From the IMG/VR virus record IMGVR_UViG_3300032220_000699, positions 62,001-126,000 of that record: a DNA stretch of 64,000 bases. One strand, 5' to 3'. The notes beneath the pieces are model-generated. The model worked only from the letters and a program-made list of their open reading frames with translations. It searched no databases and was not told the DNA's origin. The translations under genes were made by a program, and so were the position numbers. This document shows positions 14,696-36,166 of the stretch, in pieces. Source of the DNA: a virus. Positions within the stretch are counted from its first letter, which is position 1, and every line of letters starts with the position of its first letter.

Positions 14696-16849
14696 TTAAA
14701 CAGTATGCATATTGACAGTAACCTTGCCAGTAACTTCCGGCAGACCGGTCACTTCGAGCATGGTCATCATCGGCAGATTGACAGTGTGCAGGAAGCGCGG
14801 AGAAACGATCAGTTCCTTAGAAACTTGACCATCGCGGCTAACCGGCATAACAACGGTCAGTTCCGGCGACCACAGCATGTTGCCGAAGTTCAGCGGATTG
14901 ATACCGGTGTTACGAGCAGAGTCAAACACACCGAAGGACACGAAGATCTTGCCCTTGACACGGCTATCCAGAGTCGAAACGATACGGACGTCGAAGGTTT
15001 CACCCAGCGTACGCAGATCGCCATCGGCTTGCAGATAGTTGTAGATCACCGGATCGGTACCAACGATAATGGTCGGCTTGAAGCCAGTGTTGCCAGTCAG
15101 AACAGCGGCAGCAGCCTTGTATTCCGAAGAGCGATACATTTCATTAGCGTAGTAACGCAGCTTTTCAACCAGAGCAGCACGGATGTCCTTGATCTTCTCA
15201 TGGGACTTCAGGCTGTCAACGGTGCCTTCCAGATTGATAGCTTCGTGGAAGTAGATCGGCTTGACATACAGATGACCGAAAGCATTGATTTCTGGCAGGT
15301 CGCCGTTAGCGTCAGCAACCGGAGCGTACGAAGCCAGGGAGACTTGAGCACGCAGCAGAGCTGAAACAGCTTCGTTCGAAACACGGATACCAGTGGTGGT
15401 GATCAGGGTTTGCAGAGCGGAGTTGTCATCACCAGAAGCATTAACAACCGGCATGATGATGGACAGCGGTGAACGGTACGGAACCGGAATCACACGGTAT
15501 TCGACTTGAGAGTCGAGCAGCTGACCACGTTGACGGATGTTGCTGTTAGCACGGAAGGCAGTCAGCGTATAGCCGATGACTTCAGCAGCAGCGATCTTAC
15601 CAGCCAGGGTGTTGAAGGTAGCACCAGAGACCAGCATGTCGGAAGCATTACGCAGAGCAACCAGACCCAGCGTACCACCAGAAACCAGGCAGTCACCCTT
15701 GTCCAGAGACACGTTACCAGAGATAGACAGCTGGATACGAGCCTTGTGAGTAGCCAGTTCAGGCAGAGAAGCCGGAGCAGCACCAGTGACGTCCAGAGTC
15801 GAAGCGTCCAGAACCAGAGCGTCCGAATCCATTGCCAACAGCATACGACGATAGTTGCCTTGCGGAGCATACGTGAACGTAGAGCCCGGCTTTTCGTCAA
15901 CTTGAACGCGGATGACATCGGTGTTGGTACCGTCGGTAACCTTCAGGTAAACTGATTCCAGCTTGATGAAGGTGTCCAGAGCGTCTGAAGGACCCATGAT
16001 ACCGCTGTTCAGCAGTTCGTTGGTCTGAGAAATACCGATCAGATCGATCTTGGTGTCAACCTTAACAGCACCAGTTTGGATACTGATACCACCGCCGACA
16101 GCAACAGTCCAGGCCGGAACATCAGCAACCGGAACGAACTTGTCAGAGTTGTCGTCAGAACCGCCACCGTTACGGAGAACCGGAATAGCACGGGTCATTT
16201 CGTTCTTCAGGATTTCAGCATCAGCATAGGCGCGGATAACACTCTTACGAGCATAGTTAGCCAGCGATCCGGTGACAGAACGCTTGAAGTCATTGAAGAC
16301 GTAGAACAGCTTAGCGGACAGGGTAACACCGACTTCATTCGGGTTAACAACGATCGTCGGGAAGAAGGTTTCGCCGAATTCGTCTTGACGTGAGGCCAGC
16401 AGATTGTAGATGATCGAGAACAGCTGTGCATTACGGTTGTCACGCTCGTCATAAGCTTCGGTAGCGACTTGCGGACGTTCCATGAAGCTATCAGCAACAC
16501 CAGAAACCATAACGATAGCGTCAGAACCAACGCTCTTCGGCTTGGTGCTCAGGAATTGCTTCGGATTGCTGCCCAGCATACCGGACAGAGTTGCAGCTTC
16601 CAGTTGGAAACCTTCAACAGCCAGACCGAATTGTTGAGCGATCGTCTTCATCGAAGATTCGATGTTGTTATAGACGTTCGTCAGGGCGCTTTCAGCAGCA
16701 GAGTCAAGGCTTTCAGCAGCCAGATATTGACCGATCTTTTCGTCATTGAAACTGCGGGAAGCAGTGATCTGACCAACTTGTTCAGTCAGTTGACCAATCG
16801 GATCAACAACCAGCGACTTACGACCAGCGAGAAGTTTGTGAATAGACAT
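14696..16849 (-). CDS. Major capsid protein, phiKZ-type
   Basis: 717 aa, close to the large capsid proteins of phiKZ-like phages. It has an N-terminal helical arm (about 1-150), a middle region with FPTIVVNPNEVGVT, and C-terminal segments such as GFKPTIIVGTDP and SRDGQVSKELIVSP that resemble that family. It forms the head shell. The gene is visibly richer in G+C than its neighbours and avoids rare codons, as expected for the most abundant virion protein. It follows AGGAG and has its own terminator. Another abundant virion protein, such as a tail sheath, is the alternative. Confidence 0.65.
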   Translation of the reverse strand: MSIHKLLAGRKSLVVDPIGQLTEQVGQITASRSFNDEKIGQYLAAESLDSAAESALTNVYNNIESSMKTIAQQFGLAVEGFQLEAATLSGMLGSNPKQFLSTKPKSVGSDAIVMVSGVADSFMERPQVATEAYDERDNRNAQLFSIIYNLLASRQDEFGETFFPTIVVNPNEVGVTLSAKLFYVFNDFKRSVTGSLANYARKSVIRAYADAEILKNEMTRAIPVLRNGGGSDDNSDKFVPVADVPAWTVAVGGGISIQTGAVKVDTKIDLIGISQTNELLNSGIMGPSDALDTFIKLESVYLKVTDGTNTDVIRVQVDEKPGSTFTYAPQGNYRRMLLAMDSDALVLDASTLDVTGAAPASLPELATHKARIQLSISGNVSLDKGDCLVSGGTLGLVALRNASDMLVSGATFNTLAGKIAAAEVIGYTLTAFRANSNIRQRGQLLDSQVEYRVIPVPYRSPLSIIMPVVNASGDDNSALQTLITTTGIRVSNEAVSALLRAQVSLASYAPVADANGDLPEINAFGHLYVKPIYFHEAINLEGTVDSLKSHEKIKDIRAALVEKLRYYANEMYRSSEYKAAAAVLTGNTGFKPTIIVGTDPVIYNYLQADGDLRTLGETFDVRIVSTLDSRVKGKIFVSFGVFDSARNTGINPLNFGNMLWSPELTVVMPVSRDGQVSKELIVSPRFLHTVNLPMMTMLEVTGLPEVTGKVTVNMHTV

Positions 16850-34049: not shown

Positions 34050-34083
34050 ACGAAACTCCTTTTTATTGAAAGTTGCTACTGGA

Positions 34084-34123
34084 AAAAACAAAATAAAAAG
34101 ACATGAACTATTTGTTCATGTCT
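34084..34123 (-). terminator. Terminator of the tmRNA transcript
   Basis: The stem AGACATGAAC/GTTCATGTCT is followed on the minus strand by TTTTTATTTTG. It lies right after the last conserved helix of the coding piece. Confidence 0.85.
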
Positions 34124-34251
34124 GTAAGGAAAGAGAAGGTCCACCTGCCTATTTGGGTAATAAGGACTCCGTCATGATCGGGAGAGCAGGTGGCTTGGAA
34201 GACCGAAGTCAACCAATGACCCCATCGCTAGTCAACTTAGGCTAACCGCTG

Positions 34252-34296
34252 TTAGGCGGCGAGCTTCAGCTGAGGTGCGAACTGTGCATCATTTGC
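34252..34296 (-). other. tmRNA tag-peptide reading frame
   Basis: Fourteen codons and TAA encode ANDAQFAPQLKLAA, with the AND start and LAA end typical of proteolysis tags. An in-frame GCA at 34314 would extend it to 20 residues. I prefer the shorter form because AND is the common opening. Confidence 0.75.
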
Positions 34297-34387
34297 GGCA
34301 GTTATTGAGTTTGCTAGATTTACGTCATTCGCCTGACGTGTCGTTCCTTATCCACTAGTTATGCGCTGTCGAAACCTGTACATCCCC

Positions 34388-34504
34388 ATCAGAGACAGTC
34401 TGAACCAATCGGTCACAATTAACACGTTGACTGCGGTTTTATCCGGAGGCGCTTAACTGTAAATGCCGTTCGCCTTAAACAAGCAAACGCAACCAGACTG
34501 TCTT
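34388..34504 (-). other. Intervening segment of the permuted tmRNA precursor
   Basis: 117 nt between the CCA of the acceptor piece and the first base of the coding piece. Its ends form a perfect 10-bp helix (AGACAGTCTG with CAGACTGTCT) that extends the acceptor stem. The interior is AT-mixed with no reading frame. It is expected to be removed by tRNA-type processing. Confidence 0.75.
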
Positions 34505-34590
34505 TGGTGGAGATGGGGGGAATCGAACCCCCGTCCAACACACTTTCATTTCTAAAGTCTCAGAGAGTTACCTCTCCATACGACAATATT

Positions 34591-35115
34591 CCTTCGCCAT
34601 TGATGAGCATGGGCCGAAGATTGAAGCTAGTTAGTCCTCGGGCATTCTATCCCGAATTAGATGCTCTCACATCCCACTTGTTTTAAAGTTCCTGGTGAGA
34701 GACCAGATCCTCTTTGTCAAGCGTTTACGTCAATGTCCGTAGAACTAAAAAGCAAACTTGCCTGGTTACACATCCAGGTTGCTGGGATTAAGCAATGCGA
34801 ACGGATCTACATTTCAATAGTCCGGTTGTTAATCGAATTACACTTATAGATGAGCGACATCTATAAGACACTTGTGAAAGGTCCCACTTTCATCAAGAAC
34901 TGAGCATGTAAGAGCTAAAGATATGGCAGTGGAGAGATCATGTTTAGACGTGACCATGACCCCTAAACCCCACTATTCTGTCTCGATGTAGCAGACCGCG
35001 ATATCCACATCATCGTCGAGCCATATCCTTAGCAAACTAGTCGGGATTCGTCCTAGCCTTAGACGATATCTCTCCGAGATAGTGAGGAAGTTGAACCTCA
35101 CATAAATCCCTTACT
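34591..35115 (-). ncRNA. Large hairpin-rich noncoding RNA upstream of the tmRNA
   Basis: About 520 nt with no plausible gene. On the minus strand it is full of strong hairpins: GTGAGG/CCTCAC, TATCTC-GGA-GAGATA, GAAAG/CTTTC, CTTATAGATG/CATCTATAAG (10 bp), CCTGG/CCAGG, CTGGT/ACCAG and TCGGG/CCCGA. A long-range AGTGG/CCACT pairing encloses a CATG/CATG hairpin. Base composition is less AT-rich than the flanks. Length, tRNA/tmRNA neighbourhood and phage context recall the giant ornate phage RNAs GOLLD and ROOL, but I cannot match a consensus. It may be cotranscribed with, or be the leader of, the tmRNA. Confidence 0.55.
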
Positions 35116-35123
35116 CGTAGTGC

Positions 35124-35453
35124 CTAAGCACAATTCTTTTGTTCAGCTCGCCGCGCATTCAAGCGATCAGCCGTAGTGGTTGACTTGCGAGAATTAAGAC
35201 GGTTAGCCAAAGCGATCGGGTGAATACGATAAACACCCTTAGCGATGCGGCGAGTATATTTACGCCATGTCGGAGAATGTTCGCTGGTATCCATCTCAGC
35301 GTTACTGAGAAGAACACCGGTATAAGACTTCTTGATCTTCTCAAAAAAGTCCATAACTTCCTGACGAGTTACGATCAAACCTTTACCGATTTGACCATCA
35401 AGCATAGCATCCAGAAGCGAGTCATGAATGCTGCTAGTGACGTATGTTGCCAT
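35124..35453 (-). CDS. Small basic protein of unknown function
   Basis: 109 aa from the ATG at 35453 (AAGGAGA ahead); a GTG just before is possible. It has a helical N-terminus and a strongly basic C-terminal half (KYTRRIAKGVYR, NRLNSRK, DRLNARR), which suggests nucleic-acid binding. It lies between tRNA-Leu and the large noncoding RNA, so an RNA-binding role is an attractive but unproven idea. Confidence 0.45.
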   Translation of the reverse strand: MATYVTSSIHDSLLDAMLDGQIGKGLIVTRQEVMDFFEKIKKSYTGVLLSNAEMDTSEHSPTWRKYTRRIAKGVYRIHPIALANRLNSRKSTTTADRLNARRAEQKNCA

Positions 35454-35511: not shown

Positions 35512-35597
35512 TGGTGCCGGGAACGGGAATCGAACCCGTACACTCAATGAGCGAGAGATTTTAAGTCTCTTGTGTCTACCAATTTCACCACCCCGGC
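35512..35597 (-). tRNA. tRNA-Leu (anticodon UAA)
   Basis: 86 nt with encoded CCA. The acceptor GCCGGGG pairs with TCCCGGC (one G-U), and the T-arm is ACGGG-TTCGATT-CCCGT. It has a long variable arm and an anticodon loop with TAA (GACTTAAAATC). It serves UUA codons, which are common in this AT-rich genome. Confidence 0.95.
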
Positions 35598-36090: not shown

Positions 36091-36166
36091 TGGCCTCCCG
36101 TAGACGGTTCGAACGTCTGACCTGAATCTTAGAAGGATTCTGCTCTTCCAACTGAGCTAACGGGAG
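36091..36166 (-). tRNA. tRNA-Arg (anticodon UCU)
   Basis: 76 nt with encoded CCA. The acceptor CTCCCGT pairs with ACGGGAG, the D-arm contains GCTCAGTTGGAAGAGC, the anticodon loop is CTTCTAA (UCU), and the T-arm is AGACG-TTCGAAC-CGTCT. It serves AGA/AGG codons, which are rare in many hosts. Its first 10 nt overlap the end of the HNH gene. Confidence 0.95.

Follow-up and report, generated by a model that had tools for sequence, protein, structure and literature searches.

Whether a jumbo phage can carry its own gene for the RNA that rescues stalled ribosomes, and in what form, is the question raised by one locus in the window, the whole 64,000-base stretch analyzed here (G000:62001-126000, from a virus record of 189,134 bases). 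A preliminary description of this DNA had proposed that it is phage DNA with a tmRNA (ssrA) gene in circularly permuted form. Our analysis leads us to regard the locus as very probably an intact-looking, phage-borne permuted ssrA gene of beta type in a phiKZ-like jumbo phage, where it would supply rescue RNA via host factors.

Identity, anatomy, and carrier of the window gene

Two Rfam covariance models place the gene on the minus strand: tmRNA_permuted (RF04321) scores 102 bits over 34562-34252 (cut-off 47, E 9.5e-19), and beta_tmRNA (RF01850) scores 96.2 bits over 34639-34191 (cut-off 84, E 6.2e-28), the latter being the match retained for its clan. ARAGORN likewise calls a permuted tmRNA at 34161-34597 on the minus strand, with the tag AANDAQFAPQLKLAA. 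These were the searches that the preliminary description had proposed as a check; all are positive and, with phage genes on the same contig, they bear out its central claim. The CCA-bearing acceptor piece lies 5' of the coding piece on one strand (Table 1), and the GGGGATG/CATCTCC acceptor stem, with a G-U wobble at pair 3-70, is present as previously read, on a strand that had not been named.

Table 1. Coordinates of the features discussed (window positions unless a contig is named)
Feature	Position	Strand	Basis or remark
phiKZ-type major head protein	14696..16849	-	phrog_3231, E 5e-156
10-bp hairpin, then a T-rich tail; candidate intrinsic terminator	34099..34123	-	sequence scan
Coding piece: GGGGATG, GGTTTCGAC, resume site, tag frame, 3' hairpin	34191..34387	-	Rfam, ARAGORN
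Tag frame, AANDAQFAPQLKLAA-stop	34252..34299	-	Rfam, ARAGORN, direct translation
Acceptor 5' strand GGGGATG	34387-34381	-	direct reading
Spacer, 117 nt, expected to be cut out of the precursor	34504-34388	-	direct reading
Encoded ACCA	34508-34505	-	direct reading
Acceptor 3' strand CATCTCC	34515-34509	-	direct reading; partner of GGGGATG
T arm GGGGG-TTCGATT-CCCCC	within acceptor piece 34505..34600	-	direct reading
Acceptor (3' tRNA-like) piece, transcribed first	34505..34600	-	RF04321/RF01850, ARAGORN, direct reading; 5' end approximate
tRNA-Leu(taa)	35512..35597	-	ARAGORN; upstream of tmRNA
tRNA-Arg(tct)	36091-36166	-	ARAGORN
HNH endonuclease, phage families	36157-36621	-	10-base overlap with tRNA-Arg
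Permuted tmRNA of contig G182, interrupted T loop	L377 1958-1501; contig about 132,793-133,250	-	RF04321; ARAGORN after removal of the insert

The 3' end of the coding piece is approximate, falling at 34191 by RF01850 and at 34161 by ARAGORN. Between the two pieces, the inner pairs of P2 can form, and the RF04321 alignment flags seven other P2 pairs as non-standard; an alternative inter-piece duplex of -12.7 kcal/mol includes an 8-bp run. The tag frame reads A-ANDAQFAPQLKLAA-stop; the preliminary description had correctly recognized a frame ending in LKLAA with its stop, while its version of the tag lacked the first Ala. Taken together, the model matches and structural elements are far above chance.

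The head protein returned 204 phage records in a tblastn search, Burkholderia phage FLC9 being listed first at 40% identity. Outside the window, the same record encodes RNA polymerase subunits (phrog_2987, E 3.8e-127; phrog_2986, E 2.7e-166) and chimallin, the protein of the nuclear shell (phrog_4795, E 2.7e-67). The latter came from a profile search; a tblastn search with seven 201phi2-1 proteins matched only one of the seven in the record. This gene content suggests that the carrier is a nucleus-forming phiKZ-like jumbo phage. A twin contig, IMGVR_UViG_3300034198_008895, showed 100% identity in comparisons of 3,551 and 20,355 bases; it was rejected as independent support and counted as the same population.

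Besides the two tRNA genes of Table 1, ARAGORN finds four more elsewhere in the window, and several ORFs near the tmRNA gene have no clear family matches. Terminator-like sites number three in the 4-kb region, against 2.4 by chance. A scan of the minus strand from the tmRNA gene to 35620 found no sigma-70-like promoter; phiKZ-like phages transcribe with their own polymerases. No riboswitch match was found at 34050-35200. Separately, about 480 bases upstream of the tmRNA gene (34640-35123) contain no minus-strand ORF of 80 amino acids and no Rfam match at E 1.

Permuted tmRNA genes, tags, and spacer helices in viruses

By implication, the preliminary description had treated a permuted tmRNA gene in a phage as a rarity. 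That part does not hold: such genes are numerous in viral contigs and already published (PMC9004378). We rejected rarity on the basis of at least 195 permuted ARAGORN calls, alongside at least 64 standard ones, from 329 viral loci among the matches listed; the loci come from three motif-selected IMG/VR sets, and the counts are not a prevalence. The first 120 IMG/VR loci listed for the T-arm pattern yielded 60 permuted and 38 standard calls (the 60 being 62 calls minus L001 and L002, which lie outside the 120). Published surveys report tmRNA in 402 of 18,146 phages, with a two-piece form suggested for 53 of 133 unique structures (PMC9004378), and 79 bacteriophage sequences among the 97,179 of a 2025 tmRNA database (PMC11915505); huge phages with both tmRNA and SmpB have also been described (PMC7162821). 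A permuted tmRNA gene in a phage is thus of a known kind, and what is unusual here is the phage clade. As reported, methylophage Melnitz likewise carries a complete two-piece ssrA in a myophage; its gene is of alphaproteobacterial type and lies under a predicted glutamine riboswitch (PMC9004378), whereas the window gene is of beta type and resides in a phiKZ-like phage.

At 15 residues, the window tag carries PQLK between ANDAQFA and LAA. Across the 195 viral permuted tags among the matches listed, all from motif-selected loci, the modal length is 10 residues (122 tags); 32 tags have 13-15 residues, 177 end in AA, and 161 contain N[DE]xx[FYW]. The tag ANDAQFALAA occurs at no fewer than nine viral loci among these 195 listed calls. 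Retargeting of rescue or proteolysis, which the preliminary description had anticipated from the tag, is not indicated, because the window tag keeps ANDxxF...LAA, as do most of the viral permuted tags compared.

The 10-bp helix earlier placed at the spacer ends is confirmed as 10 Watson-Crick pairs between 34503-34494 and 34402-34393, matched by 1 of 20,000 mononucleotide shuffles; with G-U pairs allowed, 11 pairs form, a number reached in 0.3-0.4% of shuffles. It begins one nucleotide after the CCA and stops 5 nt before G1. We surveyed 121 T-arm matches (120 listed viral loci plus the window gene) with a strict sequence rule for the coding piece, which was found downstream in 53; by that rule there was none in 68. 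A helix of at least 8 pairs, starting 0-2 nt past the CCA and ending 3-6 nt before G1, was present in 35 of the 49 unique other viral permuted genes, absent from 14, and formed in 47 of 9,800 shuffled spacers. Among viral permuted tmRNA genes, this helix is a family trait. In the usual register four leader bases face the ACCA; the window gene has five. Two of three bacterial permuted genes, one of them read one base off, did not show the helix, a set too small to support a conclusion, and the spacer helix of the G182 gene considered below was no better than shuffles (0.65).

This helix may serve to present the RNase P and 3' cut sites. Leader bases paired with RCCA reportedly inhibit one step of RNase P action (PMC9433436), and an open ACCA would therefore make sense. 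In the minimum-energy fold of the window precursor, part of the ACCA is paired with the leader, which might slow RNase P cleavage. A recurrent helix that leaves ACCA opposite a leader of about 4 nt would offer a simple model in which the helix presents the two cut sites of a permuted precursor.

Origin, proposed role, and competing explanations

The window gene is of betaproteobacterial type. Like betaproteobacterial tmRNA of the RF01850/RF04321 kind, it combines the same piece order with an acceptor stem bearing G3-U70, an encoded CCA, GGUUUCGAC, an ANDxxF...AA tag, and a 3' hairpin. Unlike those genes, it is phage-borne, scores lower, has a tag lengthened by PQLK, and does not conserve seven of the model's P2 pairs. 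In one bacterial order, chosen through a Methylotenera genome, 3 of 150 genomes passed the RF01850 cut-off; three bacterial permuted genes score 169-296 bits with this model, as compared with 96 for the window gene, and carry the tags ANDEHFAIAA, ANDERFALAA, and ANDENFALAA.

Capture from a host lineage with a permuted gene, as the preliminary description had proposed, is plausible. Identities leave a host and another phage both open as the source, because the nearest viral gene compared (75% over 109 nt) and the nearest bacterial gene (73% over 114 nt) are about equally close; for the same reason, we abandoned the idea of a closest relationship to viral genes. An exact T-arm pattern proved uninformative about a bacterial source: a genome scan returned mostly standard-form genes from unrelated phyla, with at least 119 loci, 109 of them standard and three permuted with implausible tags, among the matches listed.

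The anatomy of the gene and the nearby tRNA genes point to a role in supplying rescue RNA. In the scheme that we infer, one precursor would be transcribed; its spacer ends would pair and the acceptor stem form, leaving the ACCA facing a short leader. RNase P would cut before G34387, 3' processing would stop at A34505, and the two pieces would stay joined through the acceptor stem and P2. Host AlaRS would charge the tmRNA by way of G3-U70. No SmpB match was found up to E 10 in the window record or the twin, and therefore host SmpB would bring the charged RNA to ribosomes stalled on broken messages. Rescued ribosomes would append AANDAQFAPQLKLAA before stopping and recycling, after which the tagged product would be cleared by host proteases of the ClpXP type; the roles of AlaRS, SmpB, ClpXP, and RNase P invoked here are general knowledge. 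The phage would thereby gain, alongside its tRNA genes, a rescue supply independent of the host chromosome, one that could provide rescue RNA in infection while host transcription declines.

Several other explanations would account for parts of these data. The lower RF01850 score relative to the three bacterial genes, the seven lost P2 pairs, and the occurrence of the window gene in one population only are what a functionless, degenerate relic of a host tmRNA gene might show; yet the acceptor stem with G3-U70, the CCA, the T arm, the spacer helix, and the open LAA-ending tag are all intact, where under drift one would expect some of them to be broken, and we consider a relic quite unlikely. 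The window RNA could instead act as a decoy, competing with the host's tmRNA so that rescue is blocked, much as the CDS-less tmRNA of phage DS6A is reported to inhibit the endogenous one (PMC11915505). Short forms with only a tRNA-like part do occur in viral contigs, but a decoy has no need of a full tag frame with a stop and a proteolysis-type end, such as the window gene has, which makes this reading very improbable.

A tag longer than the modal 10 residues and carrying PQLK could also send its products to some other fate, such as slower proteolysis or a phage protease. Against this, the LAA end and ANDxxF are kept and tags of 13-15 residues are not rare (32/195 among the matches listed), and we judge such a fate unlikely. 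Finally, contamination or a misjoined contig might have put a bacterial gene into a phage, given that this is a metagenome record and that the twin contig, identical where compared, may share reads with it. Yet phage-family genes (major head protein, HNH endonuclease) flank the tmRNA gene on the same contig, and another phiKZ-like contig also has a permuted tmRNA; an artifact of this kind seems exceedingly improbable.

tmRNA in phiKZ-like phages and an interrupted permuted gene

Within the phiKZ-like clade, tmRNA looks rare. Nine named phiKZ-like or nucleus-forming records gave no permuted-model match at E 0.1, and none reached the standard-model cut-off. FLC9, PhiPA3, 201phi2-1, and Goslar share the head protein family, chimallin, and RNA polymerase genes with the window phage but, unlike it, have no permuted-model match; weak standard-model matches in FLC9 were set aside as lying inside a tRNA cluster, one coinciding with a tRNA. 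We also examined 70 related viral contigs, found with a profile of ten head proteins and two short peptide patterns and representing part of the clade, many as fragments. At E <=0.001, RF04321 matched two of 50 mostly longer contigs, namely the twin (over the cut-off) and G182 (below it), and the standard model passed its cut-off in none of the 50. The other 20 gave no RF04321 match at E 0.001, an absence that carries little weight as many of the contigs are fragments. Chimallin was detected in 44 of the 50, the twin and G182, both possibly fragments, not being among them; a search of 25 further viral records that have permuted calls, several of them short, did not find it. The closest relative by head protein (L308, 71%, an 88.6-kb fragment) gave no tmRNA match, and in four open jumbo-phage papers that use the word tmRNA, it appeared only within a reference to ARAGORN.

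G182 (IMGVR_UViG_3300030508_000013; 165,072 bases), with a head protein at 40% identity, is a distant relative with a stranger version of the gene. Its permuted gene scores 30.9 bits with RF04321 in a strict search and 40.4 bits in a laxer one, both below the cut-off of 47, and the T loop is interrupted by 237 positions in the alignment. The acceptor pairs GGGCCAG with CTGGTCC, including G3-U70; the CCA is encoded and followed by GGTTTCGA, and the tag is ASNDSTYDQRLAA. ARAGORN calls nothing here until 236 nt are removed, which restores the T loop TTCGATT and yields a permuted tmRNA; the same call results when the removal is shifted by -3 to +1, but from none of the larger shifts tried, so the exact base is not fixed.

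Sitting between T-loop residues U59 and U60, the insert obeys the site and end rules given for tmRNA T-loop group I introns (PMC11915505): the U at -1 pairs with a G of P1, the last base of the insert is a G, and its removal restores the T loop. By our count, and on our reading of the numbering in that source, it would lie at position 7, the commonest intron site there. A core of P1, P3, P4, P6, P7 with a bulged A, and P8 can be fitted to the insert; 13 of 20,000 dinucleotide shuffles fit the descriptor with P1 and 179 of 20,000 without it, the descriptor having been tuned after the sequence was seen. A looser group I descriptor was discarded as evidence, 32 of 400 shuffles fitting it as well, and folding of the insert alone is weak (z -2.16; 5 of 200 shuffles). 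The general group I model RF00028 gave no match to the insert at E <=10, a weak test in that the model may miss tmRNA introns, and BLAST returned no match for the G182 gene among phages or for the insert among plasmids.

In a search of nine sequences, the insert matched locus L630 (75% over 96 nt, E 1e-13), which is cut by the end of the available stretch; it is also 93% identical over 27 nt to L623, apparently a gene of standard form whose T loop holds an intron. As read off the alignment, the P3 strands GGUGGC/GCCACC of G182 correspond to GAGAGC/GCUCUC in L623, three pairs being changed on both sides, and P8 differs with pairing still possible. This homology is the strongest evidence that the insert is related to tmRNA group I introns; self-splicing is putative. 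The tmRNA form table of PMC11915505 has entries for standard, permuted, and intron genes and for two forms lacking a CDS; a permuted form with an intron is absent from it, intron and permuted being treated as separate forms, while G182 appears to be both and the window gene has no intron. We consider it likely that phiKZ-like phages hold a fourth tmRNA form, represented by G182, in which a gene both permuted and intron-bearing would give a working tmRNA assembled from three of its segments through self-splicing, RNase P, and 3' cuts; the window gene would be the intron-free counterpart.

Searches for a second such gene were negative within their scope. A scan for intron-bearing tmRNA 3' ends gave 40 matches at 39 loci (15 with intact T arms, many others plainly unrelated coding sequence), none with a coding piece downstream. 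Coding-piece matches outside any ARAGORN gene numbered 30 of 126 in viruses; no permuted, intron-bearing gene was found at 16 loci with such matches, nor in another 16 partnerless loci, several of them cut by the end of the stretch.

These surveys also turned up other forms. Group-I-like introns precede tmRNA-type 3' ends in L623, L624, L648, L619, L633, L642, L653, L654, and L630, with a standard-form 5' part upstream of the intron in L623, L624, and L648. L416, L418, L464, L467, L475, L479, and L487 appear to be short forms with only a tRNA-like domain and no evident tag frame, resembling the CDS-less form of DS6A. A tmRNA-like 5' start at 1123 of L429 (minus strand) has no acceptor partner within 900 bases and is possibly intron-bearing. 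In the tRNA region of G182, L496 7099-8873 (minus) contains several matches resembling YrlA Y RNA (RF02553; best 45.3 bits, cut-off 69). L496 11637-11792 (minus) holds a tRNA-like gene that ARAGORN reads only with an intron allowed (62 nt).

If the reading of G182 is right, tmRNA genes would no longer divide cleanly into standard, permuted, and intron forms. Such a gene can escape gene finders: ARAGORN needs the insert removed, and RF04321 leaves G182 below its cut-off. More broadly, the window gene suggests that phages thought to shield their DNA in a protein shell, transcribing apart from stalled ribosomes, can still encode rescue RNA, and the presence of tmRNA in a nucleus-forming clade makes it testable whether such phages sustain or steer ribosome rescue during infection.
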